From the NCBI GenBank assembly GCA_020342235.1, contig CP073213.1, forward strand, positions 2,119,008-2,183,007: 64,000 bases of DNA, in the 5' to 3' direction. The notes below the pieces were generated by a model. That model was not told the origin of the DNA. It made no database searches and saw nothing but the letters and a program-made list of their open reading frames with translations. The position numbers were made by a program, and so were the translations under genes. This document shows, piece by piece, positions 17,046 through 64,000 of this stretch. This stretch comes from Saccharomycopsis phalli. Its lineage: Eukaryota > Ascomycota > Saccharomycetes > Ascoideales > Saccharomycopsidaceae. Every line of letters begins with the position of its first letter. Position 1 is the first letter of the stretch.

Positions 17046-19390
17046 TCAAGCATCCTCTTTAGCCTCAACCGATGGGTTAGCAGAAGCAACCGATTCTACC
17101 GCTGACTCTGGCTCTATAATGAAAAACATTAACAAGAACTGTAAGACAGAAGCAGCAAATGGCACGTATAATGCATGGTAGAACTTCTGATATGTATCTT
17201 CCAATTTGACTGGGTCACATCGGTCAAATTCCAACACACCCAAGAGTGTAGAAGTAATGGCACTGGCAATACAGACACCTACTTGCCCAATTGTTTGGAA
17301 CACACCTGTCACCAAGCCGTGCAAGTGCAACGGCGTGTGAGACATAATACCATTTAAATATACAAGGAAGTACAAGTTTGCGGCATATCCAGCAATGAAA
17401 AGCGGTATAAACTCAAATTTCCAGTAGCTGTTTGCACTCTTGTAATCGATTCTAGTCATCCAAATGGTGCTTCCTGTCATGAGGAAACCAGAAATAAAAA
17501 GTGTGTTCTTGACGCCGACAACCGAGACGTAACGCGAACGGAAGATAATTGAGCCAAAGACCAATGCAGTAGCATGTGGAAGAAGCTTAACGCCAGCCAT
17601 GATATAGCTATCCCCTTCAATGTACTGATGGTATTGAGTCAATGTGGCAATTATTCCGATAAAGGAAATATACAAGCTGAAAATACCAAAAAACAATGGG
17701 AAGAAATTTGGAAGCTTGAAAATGATGGTAGGAAACAACAAATCCATCTTGGTTCTCCAATCAGCCTTCTCTTCTTGGATAGGAGTTTCTGGCAATACCG
17801 TATCCGTATCATCCTTGTCGCTCATAGTAGCATTCGCAATTTGCAAAGGGTGTCTCTTCTTATAAGTAGCAATATAAACGTTCTCCCATAAGAGGACTGC
17901 AACAATTAATACAAAACCAACCGGTATTGTGACGTACACTTTTGGAGAGTTCCATTTCTGACCAGCCTCAGTCAACCCCAAGATAACAAGAAGTAAGCCT
18001 GCGATTAAAGTAACCAAGCCAGGATAGTCTATATTCTTTATACTGAGGTTTAAGTGTCCCTGTGTTTTTTCAATTGGAATTAAAAAGAAGTAGAGCATGA
18101 TTGAAAACACCATTGACGCGGAAAAGGTGAAGTAGAAAAGCCCTTTGTAGCCTATTTTGCTTTCATCAAAAGCACCTCCCAAGTCAATCCCGTAGCCAAA
18201 GCTTGCAGTCAAAACAATGTCAAAGAAACGAATAGCCTTCTCCAAAGCAGGTCCTTGAAAATAATTTCCAGTAATGGCGTACCCTGACGGAAGTAATGCT
18301 GCTCCAGAAATTCCTTGCAACGCTCTAAACACAATGATCACGTAAATGTTATCAACTGCCGCGGTGATCAAGGAAAAGATCCCCATGGTAAAAGTTCCCC
18401 AAAAAAAAACTAAGTGCACACCAAAAACATCAGCCATCTTACCAAGCATGATAATAAACGAGCCTAAGGTCAATGCGTAAGCAGAAATCACCCAACAAAC
18501 AGTAGTAGAATCGACATGAAGATGCTCAGAGATGGACACAACAGAAATCAAGGCCCCAGTAACATTAAGATTGTCCAATGTTATAGCCAACAAAACAATC
18601 CCGTACACAAATGGCTTTGGACGGTATTTAGCTGGGACCAAAGTCCTGCCCTTATCCACACCGGTGTATAAAGTATTCCACAAGGTCATTATTGAAAACT
18701 AATATGCCAAAAATAAAAGGAATAGCACCCTTAAGTATTGATTCCCCACATTATATTACTAATGTAATAATCACGGGTAGCTATGCAATACCCAAAATAC
18801 ATATATTGAGCACATTTGCCGGGTTTGCGAATACGGGCTTTGAGCTTGTATGCTAACACGAGGATCTATCAACGGGCCGCAATAATAATAATGATGAAAA
18901 ATAAGGCAGCGAATAGCAATATTTTGTCAAATAATGTATCCAATATCTTATTTTGTGTCCTTTTCTTTCAAGTAAGTCCTACATTATCTGATAATTTAAC
19001 AGATAACTCCGACATGGTGCATGTTGCTTAATAATTCGCCCTACATGATTTTGATTGATGTAGGTATACGAAACAGCCACAACAAGAATACTTGGCCTAA
19101 ATCAAAACTTTTGTACCATTCAGAACGGAGCTTAGCGCTTTTAATCGCATTCAAAACCAGAAGAAGCCAAACAAAGTTTCACGAAGCTTCTCTGATTACC
19201 CGTGTCTTGAAGTATTCAATATAATGTCCGCCGAAATTCGAACCATATATGGACATTTATATGCTTGACGGTTCCGCTTCCTGGATATGTGTTTGTAGCA
19301 CTGATCATAGGTGCCATAACAACGGGTCAATGCATGCCAGATTAGTAGTGGTATATTTCAAGAGACGGTCGGTGTTTGCCAGTGTGTTGT
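17040..19390. repeat. segmental duplication, copy 1 (partner about 33840-36310)
   Basis: The MFS gene and about 700 bp upstream of it recur at 33840-36310 in the same orientation. Homology outside the gene is seen in the promoter (AAAGGAATAGC, TTAAGTATT, AATCACGGG) and further out (TGTTTGTAGCACTG-TCATA, ATAATTCG-CCTAC). The upstream parts have diverged more than the coding part. Confidence 0.8.
17046..18689 (-). CDS. DHA2-family MFS drug:H+ antiporter-like transporter, copy 1
   Basis: 547-aa major facilitator with about 14 membrane segments, like the fungal DHA2 family (Atr1-type multidrug/boron exporters). Seen: the motif A-like GKMADVFGVH after TM2, the DNLNVTGALISVV TM1 motif, VFRALQGISGAALLPSGYAITGNYF in TM4-5, a cytosolic central loop rich in Asp/Glu/Lys, and a second half ending in GLVTGVFQTIGQVG. 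Closely related to the copy at 33849-35492 (same length, mostly identical). Unlike that copy, three acidic residues (Asp157, Asp169, Asp175) replace Ala, Val and Ala around TM5 and its antiporter motif C region. The frame is intact, so this is either changed function or early decay. Substrate unknown. Confidence 0.88.
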   Translation of the reverse strand: MTLWNTLYTGVDKGRTLVPAKYRPKPFVYGIVLLAITLDNLNVTGALISVVSISEHLHVDSTTVCWVISAYALTLGSFIIMLGKMADVFGVHLVFFWGTFTMGIFSLITAAVDNIYVIIVFRALQGISGAALLPSGYAITGNYFQGPALEKAIRFFDIVLTASFGYGIDLGGAFDESKIGYKGLFYFTFSASMVFSIMLYFFLIPIEKTQGHLNLSIKNIDYPGLVTLIAGLLLVILGLTEAGQKWNSPKVYVTIPVGFVLIVAVLLWENVYIATYKKRHPLQIANATMSDKDDTDTVLPETPIQEEKADWRTKMDLLFPTIIFKLPNFFPLFFGIFSLYISFIGIIATLTQYHQYIEGDSYIMAGVKLLPHATALVFGSIIFRSRYVSVVGVKNTLFISGFLMTGSTIWMTRIDYKSANSYWKFEFIPLFIAGYAANLYFLVYLNGIMSHTPLHLHGLVTGVFQTIGQVGVCIASAITSTLLGVLEFDRCDPVKLEDTYQKFYHALYVPFAASVLQFLLMFFIIEPESAVESVASANPSVEAKEDA

Positions 19391-25690: not shown

Positions 25691-26001
25691 ATGTGATGTC
25701 AGCGTGTAACGATAAAATATTGTTTACACTACACACGTGGGATACACGTGTTGGTCACATGGGATGACACGTGAACATCACATGCCAGCGTGAGGATAAG
25801 GGATGATGCCGATAGTGACGAGAAGGGAAATCAAAACACTGTTGAATAGAAGGACGAGTCAGGAAGAATCCCAAAAGGGATTTGAGGCAACCTTTAATTA
25901 AGGAAGTAACCCTGTCTCTGGAGTAATATAAATACAGAAGGAAATAGCTAATAAATCATCAAGTAACTTGGAGATACAGTCTGAGATAACTATACAACTT
26001 A

Positions 26002-33839: not shown

Positions 33840-36310
33840 TTACAAAGCTCAAGCATGTTCCTTGGTTTCAACCGATTGGTCAATTGAGGCAGCCGCTTCC
33901 GTTACAGCTTTTGGCTCTTTGATGAAAACTGTTAATAAGAGCTGCAAAACAGAAGCAGCAAATGGCACGTATAATGCATGATAAAATTTCCGATATGTAT
34001 CTTCCAATTTTGCTGAATCATTTCGATCAAATACCAACACACCCAAGAGTGTAGAAGTAATGGCACTGGCAATACAGACACCAATTTGTCCAACAGTTTG
34101 GAACACACCTGTCACCAAGCCGTGCAAGTGCAATGGCGTGTGAGACATAATACCATTTAAATATACAAGGAAGTACAAGTTTGCGGCATATCCAGCAATG
34201 AAAAGCGGCACAAACTCAAATTTCCAGTAGCTGTTTGCACTCTTGTAATCGATTCTAGTCATCCAAATGGTGCTTCCCGTCATGAGGATTCCAGACACAA
34301 AAAGTGTGTTTTTGAGTCCAACAATCGCAACAAACCGTGAGCGGAAGATAATTGAGCCAAAAACCAATCCAGTGGCATGAGGAAGAAGCTTAACACCGGT
34401 AATGATATTGCTATTCCCTTCGATGTACTGATGGTATTGAGTCAAAGTGTCAAGTATTCCAATAAAGGAAATGTACAAGCTGAAAATACCAAAAAACAAT
34501 GGAAAGAAATTTGGAAGCTTGAAAATGATGGTAGGAAACAACAAATCCATCTTGGCTCTCCAATCAGCCTTCTCTTTTTGGATAGGAGTTTCTGGCAATA
34601 CCGTATCCGTATCATCCTTGTCGCTCATAGTAGCATTCACAATTTGCAAAGGGTGTCTCTTCTTATAAGTAGCAATATAAACGTTCTCCCATAAGAGGAC
34701 TGCAACAATTAATACAAACCCAACTGGTATTGGCACGTACACTTTCGGAGAGTTCCATTTCTGACCAGCTTCAGTCAACCCCAAGATAACAAGAAGTAAG
34801 CCGGCTACCAAAATAACCACGCCAGGATAGTCCACATTCTTGATCTTGAGATCTAAGTGGCCCTGTGTCTTTTCAATAGGAATTAAAAAAAAGTAGAGCA
34901 TGATTGAAAACACCATTGATGCGGCAAAGGTAAAGTAGAAGAACCCTTTGTAGCCGATGGTGCTTTCAGCAAAGGCACCTCCCAAGACAAGCCCATAGCC
35001 AAAACTTGCAGTCAAAACAATAGCAAAAAAACGGATTGCCTTCTCCAAAGCAGGTCCTTGAAAATAATTTCCGGTAATTGCGTACCCTGACGGAATTAAC
35101 GCGGCTCCTGCAATCCCCTGCAACGCTCTAAACACAATAACCACATAAATGTTATCAACTGCCGCGGTGATCACGGAAAAGATCCCCATGATAAAAGTTC
35201 CCCAAAGAAAAACCAAGTGCACACCGACAACGTCAGCGATTTTACCAAACATGATAATAAATGAACCCAAGGTCAATGCGTAAGCAGAAATCACCCAAGA
35301 AACAACAGTAGAATCGGCACGGAGATGCGTAGAGATGGATACAATAGAAATCAAAGCCCCAGTAACATTAAGATTATCCAATGTCATAGCCATCAAAACA
35401 ATTCCGTATACGAACGGCTTCGGACGGTATTTTGCGGGGACCAAAGTCCGGCCCTTATCCACAGTAGTGTATATAGTATTCCACAAGGTCATTGTTGCAA
35501 GTTAGTATAATGTCAAAAGTTAAAGGAATAGCTCGCTTAAGTATTAATTAACTACATTGTATTACTAATATAAGAATCACGGGCAGCTTTGTAATACACA
35601 AATTACGAACATTGAGCACATCTGTCGGATTTGTCAGCACCAACTTCGGACGCTTAAATCCTTCCACCACGAGGATCTAGCAGCTAGCCATAATAATTAT
35701 AATAATAATGATAATGGTTAAAGACGGTGATTAACATTAATTTGTCAAATAATTTATTCAATATCCTCATATGTTGTGTCATTCCTATTCAAGTATGCCT
35801 TACTTTTTCGATATTTTTTAAATTGATAACTCCGCTATCGCGCATGAGGCTTAATAATTCGGCCTACTTTATTTTAATCGATGCAGCAATTTGAAACAGT
35901 GGCGGCAAAAATACCTAGTCTAGACCAGCCCTTCTACACTATTAAGACCGGAGTTTAGTTCTTTTGACCGCATCCAAAGCCAAATAACGATAAACAAGGT
36001 TTTATGGCAGTTCTCTTATTACCCGTGTCTTAAACATTGTATTGGTATTAATATCCACCAGGGTTAGAACTATGTATGCACTTTCGTATGACCGTTAATC
36101 CCTATCAAAACGAAATTACAAATCGCCTCGGCATTCAGCCGTTGACTCATATTCGGATTTCTCCAAGCCACACATGACATAGGTTAATTAATCCTTGTCG
36201 CTTGGGTTTCCTGGATTAGTGTTTGTAGCACTGGTCATATGAGCCATAGCAATGGATTAATGTGTGTCAGGTAATTAATGGGATGTTTGAAAAGATGGTG
36301 CGAGGTAGTC
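33840..36310. repeat. segmental duplication, copy 2 (partner about 17040-19390)
   Basis: Coding region plus about 800 bp of upstream sequence match the first copy in order and orientation; see that entry for shared upstream blocks. The two copies are separated by about 17 kb. Confidence 0.8.
33849..35492 (-). CDS. DHA2-family MFS drug:H+ antiporter-like transporter, copy 2
   Basis: 547 aa, duplicate of the gene at 17046-18689. Motifs are the same (DNLNVTGALISIV, GKIADVVGVHLVF, RALQGIAGAALIPSGYAITG, HGLVTGVFQTVGQIG). Here the TM5 region is orthodox (FFAIVLTASFGYGLVLGGAFAES, no acidic residues), so this copy more likely keeps the ancestral transport function. The central loop and 3' half are the most similar between copies; the C-terminal 30 residues are the most divergent. 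About 14 membrane segments; plasma-membrane export of a toxic compound is the family expectation. Substrate unknown. Confidence 0.9.
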   Translation of the reverse strand: MTLWNTIYTTVDKGRTLVPAKYRPKPFVYGIVLMAMTLDNLNVTGALISIVSISTHLRADSTVVSWVISAYALTLGSFIIMFGKIADVVGVHLVFLWGTFIMGIFSVITAAVDNIYVVIVFRALQGIAGAALIPSGYAITGNYFQGPALEKAIRFFAIVLTASFGYGLVLGGAFAESTIGYKGFFYFTFAASMVFSIMLYFFLIPIEKTQGHLDLKIKNVDYPGVVILVAGLLLVILGLTEAGQKWNSPKVYVPIPVGFVLIVAVLLWENVYIATYKKRHPLQIVNATMSDKDDTDTVLPETPIQKEKADWRAKMDLLFPTIIFKLPNFFPLFFGIFSLYISFIGILDTLTQYHQYIEGNSNIITGVKLLPHATGLVFGSIIFRSRFVAIVGLKNTLFVSGILMTGSTIWMTRIDYKSANSYWKFEFVPLFIAGYAANLYFLVYLNGIMSHTPLHLHGLVTGVFQTVGQIGVCIASAITSTLLGVLVFDRNDSAKLEDTYRKFYHALYVPFAASVLQLLLTVFIKEPKAVTEAAASIDQSVETKEHA

Positions 36311-40731: not shown

Positions 40732-41113
40732 TGTAACGATAAAATATCGTTTACACTAGACACGTGGGATACACGTGTTGGTCACATGGGATGACACGTG
40801 AACATCACATGTCAGCGTGCGGATAAGGGATGATGCCGATAGTGACGAGAAGGGAAATCAAAACACTGTTGAATGGAAGGACGAGTCAGGAAGAATCCCA
40901 AAAAGGATTTGAGGCAACCTTTAATTAAGGAAGTAACCCTGTCTCTGGAGTAATATAAATACAGAAGGAAATAGCTAATAAATCATCAAGTAACTTAGAG
41001 ATATATTCTGAGATAACTTTACAACTTATATCTTGTAGTTAACAATACTTCATATTGTTAATTAGCCAATTTATAAGTGATTGTAACGATACCACCAGGA
41101 TTTTATCGTTACA
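40732..41113. mobile_element. intact solo LTR (TGTAACG family), 382 bp
   Basis: Ends TGTAACGATAAAAT and ATTTTATCGTTACA; perfect 5-bp target duplication TAAGT (40727-40731 and 41114-41118). It lies 12 bp upstream of tRNA-Pro. Near the left end are five E-box cores (CACGTG, CACGTG, CACATG, CACGTG, CACATG) starting at 40761, 40772, 40783, 40795 and 40806. A TATA-like ATATAAATAC is near 40960. Confidence 0.94.
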
Positions 41114-43492: not shown

Positions 43493-44545
43493 TTAGTAAT
43501 ATTCATAAAAGGCATAAAAGGCATCTGGTTTAATATCATTTCCAATAAATGGGGCATTGGTACCTTTAGTCAGAGTTATATAATATTTTTTGGAAAATGA
43601 TTTGAGTAATTTTTTCATCTCTATTGAAGTGATATCACCATTCATATAGGTACTTCCAGAATGCGGATCAGTTGAAATAAAGTAAGCAATGAGTCCAGCA
43701 ACCTGTGGAGCAGCATATGAGGTACCTGTAAGTGAATCAGAAAACCTGTCACCATTGTATTGTGTGTCAAACGTGATGCCTTCAATTGAAGAACCGTCAA
43801 ATAAAATTCCCTCACCAATGGCAAAGAAATCGACACATTCTCCCCAGTTAGAAAAACTGGACTCGCGGCCGTTAAAATTGGATGATCCAACTTTGAAAGC
43901 TCTTTCTGATCTTGCCAATGGGTCAGCACAAGAATTCGCATTTTCGTTACCTGCGGCAACAACGACATGAACATTTTTTTTTCTGCTAAGGATCTTATCC
44001 AAAGATTGCAGGAATTTATAAGATTCATTGTCTGTTCTAGGGTCAGTGGAAACACTGATATTGATGACGATACCTCTGGGATGAGTTTGTTGACGATTTG
44101 ACTCATAATCTTCGATTGCACGGTTAACACCCGCTATAATGTTATCCATTGTAAGCCGATCATCGAAACTAACAGGCACTATGAAAACTTGAGCCCTGGG
44201 TGCAACACCTAATTTTTTCCCTGCGGCAAGAAGTGCAACCTTTATAGCATGATAATCCCTTTGCTGAACGGAACGGTATTTATCATGGTTATTCACATGA
44301 ATTATTTTAGGCTGATTAATAAAATGATCTCTATAATTATAAATTGACTCCAGGGGAGCGGTGTCGATGATGTAGATAGCCACACCTTTACCAGCATTAT
44401 ACTGGTATAGATATTTGTAAGGGATATTGTTAGGTAAAGATAGAATAGGACTTGAGATCTGGGCCAAATACCTTGGTACTTCTCTCGAGATAAGCAGAGC
44501 AACAGCTATATGAAAGAGATAAAAGAAGAATATTTTAAAGAGCAT
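43493..44545 (-). CDS. secreted subtilisin-like serine protease (S8A, proteinase K-like), paralogue 1
   Basis: 350 aa. A signal peptide (MLFKIFFFYLFHIAVALL) leads within about 25 residues to the mature-type start RYLAQISSP...YKYLYQYNAGKGVAIYIIDT. There is no room for an I9 inhibitor propeptide, unusual for the family. Triad: Asp61 (IYIIDTAP), His99 (DYHAIKVALLAAG; the usual HGTH is HAIK), Ser276 (GTSYAAPQVAGL); oxyanion Asn200 (VVVAAGNEN). GSSNFNGRESSFSNWGECVDFFAIGEG matches proteinase K-type sequences. All catalytic residues are present, so activity is plausible. Start: first ATG, conserved with both paralogues. Upstream are a CCG-N15-CGG site and a 26-bp repeat. Frame intact in a region full of decayed elements. 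Confidence 0.88.
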   Translation of the reverse strand: MLFKIFFFYLFHIAVALLISREVPRYLAQISSPILSLPNNIPYKYLYQYNAGKGVAIYIIDTAPLESIYNYRDHFINQPKIIHVNNHDKYRSVQQRDYHAIKVALLAAGKKLGVAPRAQVFIVPVSFDDRLTMDNIIAGVNRAIEDYESNRQQTHPRGIVINISVSTDPRTDNESYKFLQSLDKILSRKKNVHVVVAAGNENANSCADPLARSERAFKVGSSNFNGRESSFSNWGECVDFFAIGEGILFDGSSIEGITFDTQYNGDRFSDSLTGTSYAAPQVAGLIAYFISTDPHSGSTYMNGDITSIEMKKLLKSFSKKYYITLTKGTNAPFIGNDIKPDAFYAFYEYY

Positions 44546-47190: not shown

Positions 47191-47547
47191 TGTCGTAAGC
47201 TAGCGTTTCTCTCAATGGCTTCCATATCTTACTATTGTAGATATTCTTATTCTTGTTACTATACTAGCTATTTCCTGTCCTATTTATATTCTTTCTGAGA
47301 TGCCTTCAGTTATCTTTATCTCATGACATCATTATTAGTATGACCTCATATTATTATCAGTTCACTATTAGTATGACCTGATAACTTTATTAGATTGCTA
47401 ATACTATGACCTCATACTCTTAATATACCATAAACAGTATGATATCATGGTACTGAAGGATTGCTATTTCTCAATACCAGCTTATTTATCATGCATGATG
47501 TATTTCACCATGCATTAACTCCTTCAACACTTTCAGCACTTTCAACA
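47191..47547 (-). repeat. 3' LTR of the copia element
   Basis: 357 bp, TGTCGTAAGC to CTTTCAACA on the + strand. Appears identical or nearly so to the right-hand LTR. Confidence 0.93.
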
Positions 47548-48554
47548 CCCTCTCTTAACTGAAGACTTCTCATTCCACACATAAATCTTAGTTTCTTGAA
47601 TTGTCTCTCAGACAAAGCCTTAGTAAACATATCTGCTAGCATCTCCTCAGTTCCAAGATGCTTGAGTTCCATTTCTCCTGAAGCAATGTGACTTCTAATA
47701 AAATGATGTCTAATGTCAATATGCTTTGTTCTATTGTGTAATGCTGGATGTTTAGCAATGTTAATACAGCTAGCATTATCCTCATGAATGACTGCTCCAT
47801 TCAATTTTATGCCTAGCTCTTTAAATACCAGCTTTAACCACAACATTTCCTTAACACCATCTCCAAGAGCCATATATTCTGCCTCAGCAGTAGACATTGC
47901 AATCGTTGACTGTTTCCTTGATTTCCAAGTGACTGCACCATTACCAAATTTAAAAACGTACCCAGTAGTTGATTTTCTAGTCATCTTATCAGTTGCCCAA
48001 TCGGCATCACAGAAACCATTTAAGATCACATCTTTGTTTCTAGTATAAGTGATTCCTAGATCCTTTGTTCCTTTCAAATATTTCACTACTCTCTTTGCTG
48101 CTGTCCAGTGTATTTCTTTTGGAGTCTTAAGATATCTAGACAAAACTCCAACAATATATCCAATATCAAACCGGACAGTATTTGCCGCAAATAACAATTT
48201 TCCAACTAAAGATCGGTATTCTGTACCATTACACTGTTTTGAATTGTCTTCACAATTTGTAAGATCTTGATTTGTGGCAGCAGGAATTGTAACTGGTTTT
48301 GCGTCCTTCATCTGGAATTCTGATAACATTGATTCAATATAATCATCCAACAGTAATTTAATAGTTTTGCCATCTTGATCAATATTCATTCCAAGAAATT
48401 TCTTAGCAACCCCCAAGTCTTTCATTTTAAAGTGTTGCATTAGTTGTTCTTTGACCTTTTGAATACTGTTCTCTTGATTTCCAGCAATAAGTATATCATC
48501 CACATAAAGTGCAATCATGATGAAACTGCTGCCCTCTCTTTTGAGTACAAACAA
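47505..48554 (-). pseudogene. copia reverse transcriptase C-terminus and RNase H (frame 3)
   Basis: Carries the catalytic ALYVDDILIAG and the RNase H region (ADWATDKMTRKSTTGYVFKF, STAEAEYMAL, EDNASCINIAKHP, KHIDIRHHFI). It stops inside the 3' LTR. It overlaps frame 2 by 40 bp; the break is next to a short A-run (CAAAAGAGAGG on the - strand), a place where either slippage or a sequencing indel is plausible. Confidence 0.85.
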
Positions 48555-50713
48555 TTTTCGGCTGCATTATTCTTATATCCCAATTTTTGTAATACTCCAT
48601 TAATCTTGTTATTCCATACGAGTGGCGCCTGTTTCAAACCATATAGTGATTTTCCAAGTTTAAGCACATAATCTTCTTTTCCTTTAACCTCAAACCCTTC
48701 TGGTTGTTCCATGTAAATGTCCTCCAGTAATTCTCCATTAAGGAACGCAGTCTTCACATCCATCTGATGTATAGTAAGTCCATAGTTTCCTGCAATTGAT
48801 AACATGATTCTTATTGATTCATATCTTATAACTGGTGCAAACGTTTCAGTATAATCAATCCCTTTTACTTGTGTGAATCCCCTTGCCACTAATCTCGCTT
48901 TGTATCTCCCATCATCCTTGATAGTAAATACCCAGCGACATGAAATTGCCTTTCGTCCTTGAGGGGGAACTAAAGTAAAAGTTCCATTCTGATTATGAGC
49001 TTCTATTTCTTCCATAATTGCTTTTTCCCATTTCTTGCTGTCATTACCTCGAACTGCTTGTGTGAAAGTTATTGGTATGTCATTGCGTAATTGAGTTTCG
49101 GCCATTAAACATGTGGCCACGTGATTAATACCCTCATCACTTAATTCTTCCGATCCTGAAGATACCACAATTCTGTGCTTTAAAGATATGTAGTCATTAC
49201 TTGATTCCGAATCTCCACTGTTAATTACCAAATCTGATCCCCGATATCGCTTATCCCCCCTTGAAGCTGAACGTATCATAGGGTCAGCTTCATCAGAACT
49301 AGAGGGGCCATCATCAGATGTACTATTCAGATTTTCAAGACTATGTTTTATAACACGTTTCCGTGGTGTTCTCCCAAGACGACGATTAGTGTCACTAGAA
49401 AATTCTGATTCACTTCTTGATACTTGTGATCTTTCATCATCTGGTGTAGATGAAGTTTCACTGTCCCCAGAGTCGTTCTTTATACTCTCAATATCGTCAC
49501 CAGATATATTTTCTCCATGATCACTGATATCTGCTAAATTATCCTCATCAGCAGTAGTAGTACTTGAGATAGTATCAACACTGTCCTCAGTATCATTACT
49601 AGTTGGATCTTCTGCACCATGATCCATAATTTTCTCTGCTGTTGCATCGTCAGTCACACTATCATTTTCATTATTCACATCATCATTCTCACAGTCAACG
49701 TCATCATCTGGATCAATTCTCCCTGAAACCTTGTGTTCTCCTTTCTTCAACTTAGAACTAATTGATCGATCGCTATTAACTGGAACAGTTCCAATACCCT
49801 TGGCCGTTCCTCCAATACCCACAATTGGGTTTTCCGCAGATGCTTCTTGCGCCATAGACACAGCGGAATAATAGTAGCTACCCTCATCAAAACGAACATG
49901 CGTTGCAGTTACAATCATCCTCTTAGTCGGATCAAACAACCTATAGGCCTTTCTTAAAGGTTCATATCCTAGCATAACACACTTAATTCCTGTGGCCGCA
50001 AACTTTCCAGCTCGGATATCTATAGGAATATTGCCATAAGCAACACATCCAAATACTCGAAGAATAGATAAATCAGGTTTATTTCCAGTCCATCTAAGAT
50101 ATGGACTCTCTCCATTAATAGTTCTGGATGGACTTCTATTAATGAGATAAACTGCAGTCAATACTGCTTCTGGCCAGAGTTCTACTGGCACATTACTCGC
50201 ATGCATCATAGCTCTCGTCTTTTCTTGAATGGTCCTATGCATGCGTTCCGCCACTCCATTCTGATAGGAATGATAAGGAACTGTCAACTCATGACTAATT
50301 CCCTTTGTTATAAAGAACTGATGGAGAGCTTTATTCACAAACTCTCCTCCATTATCAGTTCTAACAATACCGGCACAAAACAGTAATCCTTTACTCTGAA
50401 ACTGTCTTTCACTGTTGACAATAAACTGAATCAATGCTTCTGTACTTTCTGATTTCTTCTTAAGGCATACCACATGAGTCCATTTAGTATAACCATCAAC
50501 CACTGTTAGAAAATACTTGGATTCATTCACGGACTTATAATTAAATGGTCCACACACATCAACATGTAATAATTGGAGTGGTTGTATCGGCTGTGTAGTT
50601 CGCAGTTTTGGAATACTTACTGTAGTTTTAGTTACGGAACATTCACCACACATAGTGATATGATCGCTACTCTTCCAAAAACCATGTTCTTTATTAATAC
50701 TTTCCATGAACAT
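48515..50713 (-). pseudogene. copia integrase-reverse transcriptase N-terminus (frame 2)
   Basis: Continues integrase (CGECSVTKTTV zinc Cys pair; HVDVCGPF, TDNGGEF and YHSYQNGVAER supply D, D, E), then an acidic Ser/Asp-rich linker with 'DDDVDCENDD' tracts. The reverse transcriptase start follows (ARLVARGFTQVKGIDYTETF, QMDVKTAFLNGEL, GLKQAP). The frame closes at 48515, just before the YVDD motif. Upstream it overlaps frame 1 by 20 bp. Confidence 0.85.
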
Positions 50714-51971
50714 TAGTACCAGGATGTCCTAATCGCCGATGCCAAGTCTCAATATTATCTTCTGATTTGGCTTTAAAAGCAACACTTCCATTATCAGAAT
50801 TCTGTATCCTGTAGAGTCCTGTATTCGGTTCTTTGACTGCAATTACTTGTTTTGTAACATAATCAATAGCCTTCTGTCCATCAAATAAAATTTTCGCCCC
50901 ATTGTCAGTTGCTCGTGAACTGACTGACACAAGATTAACTTCTCCACCTGGAGTATAATATGCATCCTTCAATTGTATAGTAGTTCCACCAAGCAAGTTC
51001 ATACTGACTTTGCCTCTTGCCGTAATTGCCAACAGACCCCCAATTCCTTTAATCCGATCATCATGGGTTTCCAAAGATTCAAATAACGCCTTGTTTGCCA
51101 TAAAGTGTCTCGATGCCCCACTATCAAGATATGTGGGATACTTTTCCGCAACCCCATGGTATGCAAGCCATGAGTGATTGTTCTTCGATAATGCATGCTT
51201 CTCATCATCATCGGTTTCCTTAAGTACCTTCTTACAATCCTTTTTCACATGTCCCTTTTTACCGCACTTAAAACAGGTCACCTGACGTCGTGCCTTCCGA
51301 TGTCCTAGAAATGCCGAATGATTATTACCAGCCTGATATTCACCATCCATTTTGCTAAAAAAATGCATAAAATTTGAAGTTTCCGCAGTAATGCCTCGAT
51401 TATCATACCGGTCAATAAAGTTTTGGATAACATGTTCCGGAACTTGCTCTTGTCGAAGAATAAAGATTCCAATAATGCATGATTGCATTTCCTGACTAAA
51501 GTTTGAAAAATAGTTCCGATGTCGTTCCATGGCATATTCAAATGGCGATAGTGTGCTTGAAGATGGCGATACAGTGGTTGTACCCTTTACTGCTTGAGCA
51601 AATGACATTGTCCCATACTCATCCTTGATTGTATGAAACCGTTCTCGTGCAGTCGAGCATTGAATTCTCTCAGTATATTGTGCAACCTTTTCAGTAACTC
51701 CCTTTCGTAATAATAACGCAATAATACCATCTAATGCTGTCGCCGCATTATTGACCACTTCATTTGGTGATCCATCTGGTAATCCAAGGTCCCCATGGAC
51801 AAGGTACTGAACAAGACCGAAGCCAATCAGATCGAGCTTGTAGATAAATAACTTTGCCCATCGAGCATAATTGGTAGCTCCTTGCAACTTTTCTGTTGGT
51901 TCAAAAGTTGCCTCGCTTCCAGGGTTACTCATAACCTGTCGTAAGCTAGCGTTTCTCTCAATGGCTTCCAT
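50694..51971 (-). pseudogene. copia gag-protease-integrase N-terminus (frame 1)
   Basis: 425 codons from ATG 51971 (MEAIERNASLRQVMSNPG), so the first codons are in the LTR and the next ones are the primer-binding site. Gag core (NYARWAKLFIYKLDLIGFG, VHGDLGLPDGSPNE), CCHC knuckle (CFKCGKKGHVKKDC), retropepsin (YLDSGASRHFM), then the pre-integrase motif WHRRLGHPGTN. There the frame closes (50694) and the integrase continues in another frame. A break inside the HHCC domain is not where programmed frameshifts are known in this class, so it is read as a disabling mutation or sequence error. Confidence 0.85.
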
Positions 51972-52293
51972 ATCTTACTATTGTAGATATTCTTATTCTT
52001 GTTACTATACTAGCTATTTCCTGTCCTATTTATATTCTTTCTGAGATGCCTTCAGTTATCTTTATCTCATGACATCATTATTAGTATGACCTCATATTAT
52101 TATCAGTTCACTATTAGTATGACCTGATAACTTTATTAGATTGCTAATACTATGACCTCATACTCTTAATATACCATAAACAGTATGATATCATGGTACT
52201 GAAGGATTGCTATTTCTCAATACCAGCTTATTTATCATGCATGATGTATTTCACCATGCATTAACTCCTTCAACACTTTCAGCACTTTCAACA
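51937..52293 (-). repeat. 5' LTR of the copia element
   Basis: 357 bp. The gag start codon (51971) lies inside this LTR, 35 bases from its inner end. The outer end abuts the pol frame of the neighbouring element. Confidence 0.93.
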
Positions 52294-55176
52294 CCAATCG
52301 CGGTAATTTGTCTTCGGGTCTTTAACAATGATGTTATTTAATTTAACTATTGCATTTTGGAAGTGTGCCAGATTGTATCTTTTGAGAGGATGATGTTTGT
52401 ACTTTTGTTTTAACCATGCTATCTTTTCAATTCGATTGCGCATCTCAAGTGACTTGTCTTTGTGTTCCTCTGTTGGCGGCACATTTTCTTGATTTTCTGA
52501 TTCTGTTGGCTCCACCCGTACAAATTTTCTGGGATTTCCTATGGATGAGTCTTCTGATGAATATGATTGTCGTTTTCTTTTTGTATTGATCGTAGGTAAT
52601 ATTACTTTGGTTGGTGTAATCACTGGTGTGTCCTTTGCTTTGTGTTGTTGTTTATTCGCTAAAGTCTCGTCAGGGGATTTCCTACTTTCCACAGATTTTA
52701 TGATTGCCTTTTGGTTCTCTTGACGCTGTGTAATTTGACCTGTTTCTTGGGGGTTTTCTAATTCTTGTTCCCGATGAGTTTCCGATTCTGGTTTCTGGTG
52801 AGTTTCCAAATCTGATGCCTGGTGGATGTCCAATTCTGGTCCCTGTATGATTTCCTTGTTGGTGTTTTGTGTTGAATCGTCTGGTGGAATAGGCTTGTCC
52901 GCGTTTTCAGATAAAACCGCAGCATCCGCTTGTTGGTTTTCACCTTTGTCTTTGTCACGTTGTAAATCCTGCAACTCGTTGTCTGATATTTGATCATTTT
53001 CTTGCATTGTTTCGTCTCCGGAGTCAATTTCTGCGTCTAGTAATGGGTCAAAACTTGGGTCCGATTCGCTATCAGATGACATGGTTTGATCGGTGATTGT
53101 CCTGTTTGTGGATGACTCCGCATAGTTTATTGGTGATCCTCGGTCCGTTTTTGGGATTACGTTGTCCAGTGCGCTACCGTATCCTTCCGCGTCGATTTTT
53201 AAGCTTTTAAGTATATTGCTCTTTTCTTCTTCGTCCGTTAGAGTAGCATTCATCGTTTGAGTCTGGTCTTCGGAATCACCTTCGTAGCTTTTTTCAGAGA
53301 TATCCAGACTGGGGTAGTATGCCCGGTCAAGTTCCTGCCGTAAGGTATGTAGATTCGAATTGTTGAAGAGTTCTTTGTGATCATTGTAGTATCTGCGAAT
53401 CATGCCATATGACGATAGCGGCTTCACATTTGGTGTAATGATTTCCTTGCCATGTCTTGTGATGACTCTGAAGCAATTTCCCCCAATATCCATTCCTATG
53501 ATGAATCCTTCAATGTTGTCTGGTAGTATCTTTGATTGTGTCAAACCAACTGATTCTTTTTGTTGTTGGTTGTGAATAGTAACGATCACGTCGATTCCAA
53601 ATGGTAAGAGGTTATGTGTCGGATCGTATGGATACAACATCTGTGTTGGTGATTTCCACTTGTTTCGTTTTGATGGTGTTTGATTAACGATGTCGATGGC
53701 ATATTGAAAAATTTCTCTGAGGAAGATAGATATTTTTTCAGGATTAAAATTGGATATAATCTTGTAGACTTGCTTTAAAATTTTCTTGTTATAATTTTCG
53801 GCAAGACCATTCTTGTAGGGTAGGTAGGCGGGTGTAGCATGTTTTGTTATTCCGATTTGACGTAATTCATGATGGGTAGGAAATTCCGGTGCATTATCAC
53901 ATCTCAAACTTCTGATATGACTATTTCGAAATTCCTCTCGAACCCCAGTAATGGTGTCCATGAATGGTTCTGTTAAATCCTTGCCAACGGTGATCGTTGG
54001 CCAACAGTAGCCCGAGTATTCGTCGATAAGGGTAGTAATGTATAGCTTCTGGTTCTCACGATCGCTGAAAGGTCCTAGTGTGTCGCTGTGTAATCTGTAT
54101 AGTGGTAACGGTGCTGGGATTCTTGTACCTCTGTGTGATACTTCTGTAGCATTACACATTACGCAAATTTGACATTTTTGGATTTGTTTCTTGTCTTCTT
54201 CGTCGTGTTGTAACTTGATGTTCATGTGCTCCAATCTTTTGATTAAGCTGTCATAACTCATGTGATTGGAAATTAAGTGAAAATCGAAAAGTGTACGTCC
54301 AACGAAATGTGGAATAGTTTTGTGGTTCTTGAGTAGTGTAAATAGATTCATTTTGAGGATTTTTTGTTGTGACAGTTGAAGTATTTTCTCAATATACGGT
54401 TTGTCCTTGCTGTGCATAATTGACGGTTTGGAAGTAAATGCGGATTTGATGAGGTATCTAAGTCCATCGGTTCGTTTCATACCGATCTTGATAATTTCTT
54501 GAGTCTTTTTGTGGTAGAGGAACGTATCATTGTCATCAAAAATAACAAAATTGCCGTCTTGAGTTAAGTCGTTTAGAGCAAGTAGATTATGATGGATGTT
54601 GTTGAAGATTAATGTGTTAATTGGTATCAGATACTTTGATTTAGGAAATAGTTGTAGAGTCCCGGTTTGAGCTCGTTGGTGAATTTTCTTTGCCCCGAAA
54701 GGTAAGTGGATTTCTACCTGAGTTGATTCGCTACTGTTGCAAAAATCTTGTGTATTGAGTACAGCTTTATCTACCAGGGTTCCGTTTGCACCTGAATCAA
54801 TAACAATATCCTTTGACAGTTTGGTCTCGTTGGTTCCTTTTTTGAAGGTAGCACGATTGGCTTGAAGCTCTTGATTTTTTGCCTTTCGTTCCATTCTGAT
54901 TTTGTTTGTCATATAAGGATCGGATGTATTTATGCCAGGTCTCTGTTTCGCTTGATTAATGATTTTGGTTAAATCCAACTGTTCCCCATTTGCAATTGTT
55001 TCCAGAATAATCGCCCCATAGATTTGACGGTTAGTTTTGCATCGACTTACCTTCAAGAAAATTGTATTATAGTCCGTGGGTTCCAATGTATTCAAAGCGC
55101 GTGTGATTGTTGGACATTCTGCTGTTAGACTAGACTTTAACAGTGTGGCGGTACAATCACCCCCTTTGATGGCCAA
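52288..55176 (-). pseudogene. copia-type protease-integrase polyprotein, truncated
   Basis: About 960 codons. Retropepsin motif DIVIDSGANGTLVD, pre-integrase His/Cys region (HLISNHMSYDSLIKRLEHM ... CQICVMC), integrase catalytic residues in HSDTLGPF, LRCDNAPEF and NGLAENYNKK, then a long hydrophilic region rich in Glu/Gln/Asp with repeats such as HQKPESETHREQE. It ends at LAHFQNAIVKLNN... just short of reverse transcriptase; its stop codon is in the adjoining LTR. The open frame begins at a TTG, directly after the gag stop, so gag-pol expression would need readthrough or frameshifting. Confidence 0.8.
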
Positions 55177-55789
55177 ATCTCTTGTTATAGTCTCATATAT
55201 CTCGATGTGTCTGCAAAACTCCTGTCATATCGCCTTGATTGTTGTGGTCAAGTTCGGCCCATATTTCCATTAGTGTCATTTTTTGTCCAAGAGTTACCTC
55301 GTTATTATCGATAATTTCATAATTGATAATATCCCACCAAGCATCTCTTGCTTCACCTTCGAATTGCTGTTTGCCCACTGTTTCGGGAATTTGACCTCCT
55401 AAATAACACTTGATCGCGTTACCGATAAGTCGATCTGGTGTAATGTTTTCAATTTCCCATCTCCATTTATTTCTGTTTTGGAACGTTGACAATCCTGGTA
55501 AGTCTTTCCACTTTTCTCGTTTTTCTTTGACAATCTCACGGGCATTGTTGATTGCTTCCTCGTTTTGATCTTTTTTCTTGTCTTTTTCCTTGGATTCAAT
55601 ATTTGGATCACGTGCGGCAATTGCTTGTGTCAACTTGACTAATTGTGCAACTAACGCGCTTTGTTGTTCTGATTGCTTGATGAATTGTTCAAAACGTTCG
55701 TCGTTTTCATCTTTATTTTTTGCTTTAATTTTTAATTCGCTGATTTGTTTGGTTAAGTCTTCAATAGTTGATTTGTCGTAGCTTGGAGT

Positions 55790-55820
<31 letters not shown>
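52294..55820 (-). mobile_element. second Ty1/copia element, truncated before reverse transcriptase
   Basis: A different copia lineage with gag (55193-55792) and protease-integrase (52288-55176), but reverse transcriptase and RNase H are missing: the frame runs straight into the outer end of the neighbouring element's LTR. Its gag start follows a run of about 28 A (- strand). It is located 0.5 kb upstream of a tRNA-Ile gene, with a candidate LTR end (TGTTATTGGGG on the - strand) 18 bp from the tRNA. Confidence 0.8.
55193..55792 (-). CDS. gag-like protein of the second copia element
   Basis: 199 aa from ATG (MTPSYDKSTIEDLTKQISEL). A coiled, Lys/Glu-rich N-terminal half (KSKEKDKKKDQNEE-type composition) is followed by NITPDRLIGNAIKCYLGG and EGEARDAWWDIINYEI, resembling the capsid region of Ty1/copia gag. 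It is shorter than typical gags, with no zinc knuckle. The stop is followed 17 bp later by the pol frame. Intact as a frame, but part of a truncated element. Confidence 0.65.
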
Positions 55821-59497: not shown

Positions 59498-60472
59498 TCA
59501 CGACATTGCGAATTCATTTCCGATTAGTAGAGCAGGGGTACCCTTTGACAGAGTAATAGTGTTTTTGTTGGAATAATATTTTAGCAATGATATCATCTTT
59601 TGTGAGGTGATCACACCTCTGGAATAGAATCTTGTGGGATTTGTGTTAATTGAAAGATGGTAAGCTATGAGGCCCGATACTTGCGGAGCGGCATATGAGG
59701 TACCACTGATTTTAGAATTTCTAACAATGATATTCTCACCCGTGGCAAAAAAATTGACACAACTTCCCCAGTTAGAAAAGTGGGACTCCTTGCCATCAAA
59801 ATTGGAGGAACCAACTTTGATTGCCAATTTTGAACTGGCCAATGGAATTTTAGAAGCATCGTGATTTGCGTTACCTGCAGCAAGCACGACATGAACATTA
59901 GGATTATTTTCAAGGATTTCATCTAATTCATCCAGGATTTCATGAGGTGGATCCACTGGTGCGCCTTCATAGCCAATACTGATATTGATAACAATACCTC
60001 TAGGATAGGCTTTGGCACGTTTTGTGCGATAATCATTGACTGCAAATTTAACACCTTCTATAATGTCGTCAAGGTAAAAGGGATCATTAAATCTGACAGG
60101 AAGAATGAAAAGTTGAGCTTTTGAAGCGACACCTAAATCTTTTCCAGCGGCAATAAGGGAGACATCGATGGCATGATGAGAATGAGTAAAAAGTTTACGA
60201 GAGATATCCATTGGGTCTTTGTAAAGAAGTTTTGGTTTGTTGATGAAATAGTCTTGGATGCGAGACATTGATACCAGGGGAACGGAGTCAATGACGTAGA
60301 TAGCGACACCTTCTCCAGCTTGAGACTGGTATTTATAGTTGTAAGGGCCGGATTTGGGTAGAAGTTGATCAGGACATGAAATGCGAGCCAAATAGTTTTT
60401 TGTATTTTGGCGAGTGATAATTTCAGCAAAAGCTAAATGGATGAGATGAAAGAAGAAGATTGAGATGAGCAT
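59498..60472 (-). CDS. secreted subtilisin-like serine protease, paralogue 2
   Basis: 324 aa. Signal peptide MLISIFFFHLIHLAFAEI; mature-type start NYLARISCP...YNYKYQSQAGEGVAIYVIDS; no propeptide. Triad Asp62 (YVIDSVP), His100 (SHHAIDVSLIAAG), Ser259 (ISGTSYAAPQVSGL); oxyanion Asn201 (VVLAAGNANH). It is a few residues shorter than paralogue 1 in the loop before the Ser and lacks its C-terminal tail. Start: an upstream in-frame ATG (60523) exists, but the 51 bp between it and 60472 align with the 5' leader of paralogue 1, and the signal peptide starts at 60472 in both paralogues. Upstream: a CCG-N15-CGG site. Predicted active. Confidence 0.87.
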   Translation of the reverse strand: MLISIFFFHLIHLAFAEIITRQNTKNYLARISCPDQLLPKSGPYNYKYQSQAGEGVAIYVIDSVPLVSMSRIQDYFINKPKLLYKDPMDISRKLFTHSHHAIDVSLIAAGKDLGVASKAQLFILPVRFNDPFYLDDIIEGVKFAVNDYRTKRAKAYPRGIVINISIGYEGAPVDPPHEILDELDEILENNPNVHVVLAAGNANHDASKIPLASSKLAIKVGSSNFDGKESHFSNWGSCVNFFATGENIIVRNSKISGTSYAAPQVSGLIAYHLSINTNPTRFYSRGVITSQKMISLLKYYSNKNTITLSKGTPALLIGNEFAMS

Positions 60473-60578
60473 AATGTAGAAGAAATAAGGGAAATGATGA
60501 AGATTAAATATGAGATTTAACATGAGATAGAAATATGAGATATATTAAATATAAGATAGATGATTGTAAAGGATATAG

Positions 60579-63477: not shown

Positions 63478-63703
63478 CATGTGATGAAAGATTATCATGC
63501 GCCACAAAGTTAACATGTGACGCCGACAGGTCATGTGATTGAAATAGCATGTGACATGGAATTAGCACGTGGCATAGCAAATCATGTGATATAATTTACA
63601 TGTGACATGGAATTAGCATGTGACATATCAAGTCATGTGATAAAATTAACATGTGACTTGGCATCAGCACGTGAGGGCAGTTGTCATGTGATAGAAATGA
63701 CAT
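63478..63703. repeat. 51-bp subtelomeric satellite carrying E-boxes
   Basis: Thirteen CA(T/C)GTG cores start at 63479, 63514, 63532, 63548, 63566, 63583, 63599, 63617, 63634, 63650, 63668, 63685 and 63701, plus a mutated one at 63496. Spacings are 18, 17 and 16 bp in rotation, so the basic unit is about 51 bp with three boxes (for example ATGTGACATGGAATTAGCAT then GTGACATATC...). Most have the TCATGTGA/ACATGTGA form. The last box runs directly into the telomere repeat. Confidence 0.9.
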
Positions 63704-64000
63704 GTGCGGATGTGCGGATGTGCGGATGTGCGGATGTGCGGATGTGCGGATGTGCGGATGTGCGGATGTGCGGATGTGCGGATGTGCGGATGTGCGGATG
63801 TGCGGATGTGCGGATGTGCGGATGTGCGGATGTGCGGATGTGCGGATGTGCGGATGTGCGGATGTGCGGATGTGCGGATGTGCGGATGTGCGGATGTGCG
63901 GATGTGCGGATGTGCGGATGTGCGGATGTGCGGATGTGCGGATGTGCGGATGTGCGGATGTGCGGATGTGCGGATGTGCGGATGTGCGGATGTGCGGATG
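63704..64000 (+). repeat. telomeric repeat (GTGCGGAT)37
   Basis: 297 bp of perfect 8-bp repeats to the end of the window, G-rich strand 5'->3' outward. Homogeneous non-TTAGGG repeats are typical of budding yeasts. The unit contains CGGATGT, a block also present in the 23-bp Candida albicans telomere repeat (established knowledge), fitting the CUG-Ser placement. Confidence 0.95.

Follow-up and report, generated by a model that had tools for sequence, protein, structure and literature searches.

Candidate Cbf1 sites in arrays beside the telomeres of Saccharomycopsis phalluae

At 8 of the 12 telomere-bearing contig ends of the mushroom-infecting yeast Saccharomycopsis phalluae, a row of E-boxes of the form CAYGTGAY adjoins the telomere, with its boxes facing it. 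We propose that the array serves the bHLH-zipper protein Cbf1 as a platform at the telomere border, a reading to which we give a probability of about one half; we infer both the binding and the function. The recurrence of the array beside telomeres suggests that Cbf1 helps to organise the chromosome ends of this yeast.

The window, by which we mean the whole stretch of 64,000 nucleotides analysed, is the right end of contig C2 (C2R) in a genome of 14,148,124 bases on 8 contigs. All 16 contig ends were fetched, labelled by contig and by right or left end, and turned with the telomere at the right. The telomere repeat (ATGTGCGG)n was present at 12 of them, and it is these that were counted for arrays; of the remaining four, one was unreadable, one appeared by eye to be rRNA-like, and two ended in other DNA. 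The innermost telomere repeats vary at one base, and in order, at C1L, C4L, C1R, C5L, C6R, C7R and C8L: ATGTGGGG units are innermost at the first five of these, ATGTGTGG units come second at C1L and C4L and are innermost at C7R and C8L, and ATGTGCGG units are outermost in those tracts, with a few single T units. Such ordered variants could be a record of successive changes in the telomerase template. The available part of the S. phalluae genome paper describes contig ends tested with TTAGGG/CCCTAA (PMC8468998), whereas the repeat observed here is GTGCGGAT; the count of 12 telomeric ends is the same in both, and the telomere of contig 8 lies here at the low end, unlike in that part of the paper. 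Among the literature matches listed for the letters of the 8-bp repeat, those found were, by title, chance ones (for example primers).

Table 1. Coordinates of the array and of its neighbours in the window.
Feature	Position	Strand	Remarks
Nearest gene, subtilisin-like (Peptidase_S8), 329 aa	62106..63095	-	read away from the telomere; context, outside the array
E-box (CAYGTGAY) array	63478..63706	+	13 CAYGTG boxes and 1 degenerate; 16/18/17-bp steps; 51-bp period from 63531
Three full 51-bp satellite units	63531..63683	+	three boxes per unit; period 51
Last box, CATGTG	63701..63706	+	shares letters with the first telomere repeat (ATGTGCGG); the telomeres of C3L, C7R and C8L likewise begin with a box
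Telomere repeat (ATGTGCGG)n	63702..64000	+	37.4 copies, reaching the contig end; Tandem Repeats Finder

The original prediction, made from the window alone, described thirteen CAYGTG boxes at 16/17/18-bp spacing in a 51-bp satellite, and this description is real, bar one step. The boxes start at 63478, 63514, 63532, 63548, 63566, 63583, 63599, 63617, 63634, 63650, 63668, 63685 and 63701, with spacings, in order, of 36, 18, 16, 18, 17, 16, 18, 17, 16, 18, 17 and 16 bp; the lone 36-bp step contains a degenerate box, CATGCG, at 63496, which stands 18 bp from either neighbour, and Tandem Repeats Finder returned the satellite period of 51 bp. The 240 bp before the telomere hold 11 CAYGTGA, whereas 2000 dinucleotide shuffles gave 0.32 on average and at most 3. 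The degenerate box lies within a common stretch, TCATGCGCCACAAA (window 63495-63508), that is kept though it holds no E-box, and that recurs at the same place in the arrays of C3L, C7R, C8L and C4R and, slightly altered, in that of C6R. Further inside the window, at 25734-25784 and 40761-40811, are two tandem CACGTG/CACATG clusters with 11-12-bp steps and a common consensus, 15 kb apart.

An array confined to the window's end is excluded, as the array recurs at the eight ends in a common orientation. The last 240 bp contain 11 CAYGTGA at C2R and at C3L, 10 at C7R, 8 at C8L, 7 each at C6R and C5L, 5 at C4R and 4 at C5R, and at each of these ends the observed count was reached by 0 of 2000 shuffles. 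No CAYGTGA was found in the last 240 bp at C1L, C1R, C3R and C4L, so that the array is not absolutely needed by any end, a point against the platform, and the idea that it would precede every telomere does not hold. A genome-wide search for three CAYGTGA at 14-20-bp steps gave 43 matches, against 6 for a reversed control pattern; 36 of the 43 lie in the eight array ends, all oriented to the telomere (these overlap each other and include near-copy ends), and 7 are internal. Two-box CAYGTGAY matches numbered 87, many of them internal, against 7 for the reversed control. That CAYGTGAY pairs are common inside chromosomes too counts against a telomeric platform.

The eight ends are moreover not eight independent cases. 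C2R and C3L have their last 9.7 kb in common at 99.5% identity, C7R and C8L share their array save for one deletion, and C5L and C5R are related, which leaves about five sequence families (C2R/C3L, C7R/C8L, C6R, C4R and C5L/C5R) rather than eight; this reduction to about five independent families also weighs against the platform. From the sequence that the first two pairs have in common it follows that ends exchange DNA, and this is what would be expected were the array a passive subtelomeric satellite, in which CATGTGA is kept by descent and spread between ends by recombination, with no protein partner of consequence. The variation of box number between 4 and 13 per array fits this account as well, as does the carrying along of the degenerate CATGCG with its flank in C2R, C3L, C7R, C8L and C4R, and in slightly changed form in C6R. 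We consider a passive satellite rather unlikely, for reasons that lie in the form of the site and in the comparison of boxes with spacers.

The form of the site was read from boxes pooled from C2R, C7R, C6R, C4R, C5L and C5R, with C3L, C8L and the junction boxes dropped, which gave 42 distinct boxes with their flanks. Of these, 33 are CATGTG and 9 are CACGTG; the base that follows is A in 41 and G in 1, and after CAYGTGA the next base is C or T in 35 of 41, G in 5 and A in 1. Against a local C+T content of 39% the pyrimidine excess has a binomial P of about 2e-9, a figure to be read in the light of the boxes not being independent. The resulting site, CAYGTGAY, closely resembles the Cbf1/CDEI motif, which we take to be spelled RTCACRTG, read backwards and with its asymmetric flank included, and the C/T variation within the box falls at the sole position that Cbf1 tolerates, a coincidence that a passive satellite does not lead one to expect. 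The nine-letter form RTCACRTGA, in which the original prediction had cast its Cbf1-type sites, is matched by T-preceded boxes only (18 of 42), and the eight-letter RTCACRTG fits better. The available text of a cryo-EM study gives CDEI as gtCAC[A/G]TG, read by Cbf1 through its residues His227, Glu231 and Arg235 (PMC10381965).

The boxes also point one way. Over the terminal 260 bp of the eight ends with arrays, the telomere-ward strand carries 52 CATGTGA and 1 CACATGA, and the other strand carries 0 CATGTGA; 27 T-preceded boxes read CACATGA on the opposite strand, and at 2 palindromic TCACGTGA sites CAYGTGA can be read in both directions. The background comprised 188,348 bp, made up of window 1-63400 and of inner sequence from 14 fetched ends (one being a near copy of the window's end); over both strands it held 22 CATGTGAY, 18 CACATGAY and 30 CACGTGAY. 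CpG decay of CACGTG was considered as the source of CATGTG and rejected, since it would give CATGTG and CACATG equally, and the telomere-ward counts are 52 and 1.

The box at 63701 reads CATGTGCGGATGTGCGG and therefore overlaps the first telomere repeat. The predicted fusion of the last box to the telomere thus stands for the window but fails as a general feature, this type of junction being present at 4 of the 12 ends only (C2R, C3L, C7R and C8L). The arrays at the other ends either finish short of the telomere or have another element after them: at C5L and C5R the array is separated from the telomere by a second element, one with CATGAGATGG. Among the box-less ends, C1R resembles the other three by BLAST, and each of those three has the CATGAGATGG 10-mer once in its last 1 kb.

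The four fused junctions, at which the telomere starts exactly at a box, could be taken to mean that the array is a fossil or seed telomere, the ATGTG in common being homology to the telomerase template at which a broken end was healed. We regard this as very improbable. The 9 distinct CACGTG boxes have no ATGTG, the position after the box is A in all boxes but one and C, G or T in the telomere units, and 8 of the 12 ends have their junction elsewhere than at a box; homology to the telomerase template may explain the junction, but not the array. A related candidate, that the array is degenerate telomere repeat and constrained as such, was ruled out by the A after GTG and by the CACGTG forms; these features, together with the 15-18-bp steps, are not those of a telomerase-made repeat, whose unit is the 8-bp ATGTG[C/G/T]GG.

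Further evidence on the passive satellite comes from conservation. The original prediction held that boxes are spared more than spacers, and this is borne out within the window array as well as in the pair C2R/C7R. Across the three full 51-bp units, no variation was found in 19 of 21 box columns, as against 13 of 30 spacer columns (one-sided Fisher P = 0.00056), and the box phase was the most conserved of 16 phases tried, the next being its one-base shift at 18/21. Between C2R and C7R, boxes are alike at 69 of 70 positions and spacers at 129 of 148 (P 0.0033), and the alignment is unchanged when the boxes are masked. Both comparisons speak against a satellite passed on without a partner.

Comparisons between more distant arrays are less direct. 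Plain alignments, which the boxes themselves steer, gave differences in the same direction: 39/42 for boxes versus 97/122 for spacers in C5L/C5R (P 0.034), 53/56 versus 79/111 in C2R/C6R, 65/77 versus 68/118 in C2R/C5L, and 45/54 versus 83/112 in C6R/C4R, which is not significant (P 0.13). With boxes masked, register was lost in the alignments of three pairs, and boxes then agreed less often than spacers (30/63 versus 83/105 in C6R/C4R, 31/45 versus 92/113 in C5L/C5R, 33/70 versus 75/99 in C2R/C6R). Because the masked alignments of distant pairs lose register, the distant comparison presupposes the boxes and is circular, and the figure over all pairs, 1110/1158 for boxes versus 1826/2614 for spacers, is partly so. 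The masked distant arrays, then, give no sign of extra box conservation, in keeping with a passive satellite. What tells against it is that boxes recur in the distant families, mostly at 15-18-bp steps, although the spacers of these families have diverged nearly past alignment and fall into register only when the boxes are included.

The gene nearest to the array is subtilisin-like (Table 1), and, of the 12 telomeric ends, 11 have a Peptidase_S8 paralogue in their terminal 10 kb (8.2 kb for C3R), whether an array is present or not; at nine ends the distance from match to telomere is 480-1190 bp, and the copy at C3L is divided between two matches. At C2R, C3L, C4R, C5R and C6R the gene match begins at a distance of 480-710 bp from the telomere and points away from the array, as it would if the array were upstream regulatory sequence of the adjacent gene. 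We disfavour this explanation and think it most improbable. The four ends without boxes carry the gene too, at 840-1190 bp from the telomere, arrays are present at C5L and C8L with the gene 2.6 kb and 1.8 kb off, respectively, the array of C7R has no gene match within 10 kb, and the paralogues of the window at 43493-44545 and 59498-60523 have no box array upstream. Array and gene do not go together across ends, and a promoter element of the subtilisin-like gene was rejected as a candidate.

Other sequence near the ends includes, in the window at 16-36 kb, duplicated transporter-like genes (17046-18689 and 33849-35492) and, at 47-56 kb, two LTR-retrotransposon-like gene sets (47505-51971 and 52288-55792), all assigned by eye from the list of open reading frames. 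LTR-like sequence, by eye akin to window 47328-47416 and 52074-52162, lies near the terminal elements at C7R, C8L, C5R and C1R; at C7R and C8L it adjoins the array, as though the retrotransposon favours chromosome ends. At C4R a 12-bp tandem array of the GACAAGGCATTT type was seen by eye in the last 1 kb, just inside the box array, and was not noticed elsewhere.

A six-frame search of the genome gave 12 HLH matches. One of them, on C8 (L052, 242 aa), is clearly a Cbf1 orthologue as judged from its sequence: it matches S. cerevisiae Cbf1 (PDB) at E 3e-31 along the basic region, the HLH and the zipper, shares the H, E and R residues of the basic region, has an identical HKEVERRRRENIN stretch and a matching zipper, and is 61% identical to its best named relative, the Cbf1 of S. 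crataegensis. Against the latter it scores 255 bits, and the next of the 12 bHLH loci 40. The genome also encodes a protein with a Rap1 DNA-binding domain (on C6, E 3.6e-20) and one with a TRF domain (on C4, E 1.2e-49), which we take to be Tbf1-like by family. Since genes of both types are present, the usual telomere proteins have not been lost, and Rap1 is probably bound to the telomere repeat in S. phalluae.

Other bHLH proteins of S. phalluae could read CATGTGA. With 12 HLH matches in the genome, the array might be used by another such factor (for example a Pho4-like one, L057, or L051 or L054, all labelled by eye), or it might be a TERRA promoter. Of the internal triple-box matches, which number 7, we inspected four (from three places), together with one internal pair cluster, and each lies, by eye, in front of a long open frame; such clusters may therefore act as promoter elements. 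The open frames beside the four internal stretches fetched showed by eye no likeness to MET genes and lend no support to a link with sulphur genes. The flank of the boxes argues against another bHLH factor: the C or T after CAYGTGA is of the Cbf1 type, and an A at that position, presumably the form of an Ino2/Ino4 site, occurs in only 1 of 41 distinct boxes. This alternative we consider unlikely.

Cbf1 remains the best candidate, and we judge it likely that it binds the arrays. Each CAYGTGAY box would then be a CDEI-type site, and 4 to 13 of them would place several Cbf1 dimers abreast on about 60 to 230 bp of DNA. These dimers would exclude nucleosomes, keeping the telomere border open, and would stop RNA polymerase II, such that the row would separate the telomere, probably Rap1-bound, from subtelomeric chromatin and would limit transcription into the repeats (TERRA). 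We propose a roadblock at the telomere because both Cbf1, at CDEI, and Reb1, in X-elements, have roadblock precedents in baker's yeast. According to the available part of one study, Cbf1 at CDEI keeps transcription out of the centromere, a task that a Reb1 site can in part take over (PMC9371891); in the available part of another, TERRA is lowered by Reb1 clustered in X-elements, an effect that the authors attribute to a roadblock of this kind (PMC9531808). By this analogy a border or roadblock role is plausible, at odds slightly short of even.

Regulator sites beside a yeast telomere are of a known kind. We take TTAGGG and CGGGTAA as marker letters for Tbf1- and Reb1-type sites; on both strands of the last 1 kb of the eight array ends neither occurs (0 and 0), and the last 1 kb of all 12 telomeric ends holds three TTAGGG and one CGGGTAA. 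The STR and X-elements of S. cerevisiae resemble the arrays in being clustered regulator sites immediately inside the telomere that differ between ends, as the accessible text describes them (PMC9531808). They are unlike them in that the S. phalluae site is CAYGTGAY and not of the Reb1/Tbf1 type, in that the S. phalluae sites form a tandem 51-bp satellite in the window and are fused to the repeat at some ends, and in that the X core is present at every S. cerevisiae end whereas the array is present at two thirds of the telomeric ends (8/12). The CDEI of the S. cerevisiae point centromere, in the text at hand, shares its consensus gtCAC[A/G]TG and the Cbf1 contact residues (PMC10381965), but it is one site per centromere, as against 4-13 sites at S. 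phalluae chromosome ends.

Two other yeasts offer telomere-adjoining elements. In Ogataea (Hansenula) polymorpha, Rap1A is likewise a regulator with its own telomere-adjoining site, at at least 6 of 14 ends in the portion of the paper available (PMC6510891); there, however, a Rap1-type site and a Myb-type protein take the place of the E-box array and the bHLH candidate. The TelKO element of Naumovozyma castellii also lies directly inside the telomere and is missing at 7 of 18 wild-type ends, but it is a 220- or 445-bp single-copy element bound by Rap1 in vitro, and the available text describes no E-box array (PMC12408736). A bHLH factor, BMAL1, has been placed at vertebrate telomeres; it differs in that the proposal has it read the telomere repeat itself as a non-canonical E-box, and the accessible part of the paper describes no subtelomeric array (PMC6802832). 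Among the matches listed from open-licence full-text literature we found no report of Cbf1 or of E-box arrays at yeast telomere borders, which is weak evidence of absence; as far as we have seen, a Cbf1-type array is apparently new.

With a Cbf1-type array, a bHLH protein would join the few telomere-side regulators described in the literature consulted (Reb1, Tbf1 and forms of Rap1). Such an array would link the Cbf1 roadblock of the centromere with chromosome ends, and would be a case of one border factor swapped for another. We offer, as a tentative and on balance doubtful extension, that Cbf1 is a chromosome-end protein in this Saccharomycopsis lineage, where CDEI-type arrays take the job that Reb1 and Tbf1 have in baker's yeast. 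If this is true then, together with the published swap of Reb1 for Cbf1 sites at some point centromeres, it would mean that roadblock-type regulators are interchangeable at the borders of centromeres and telomeres.
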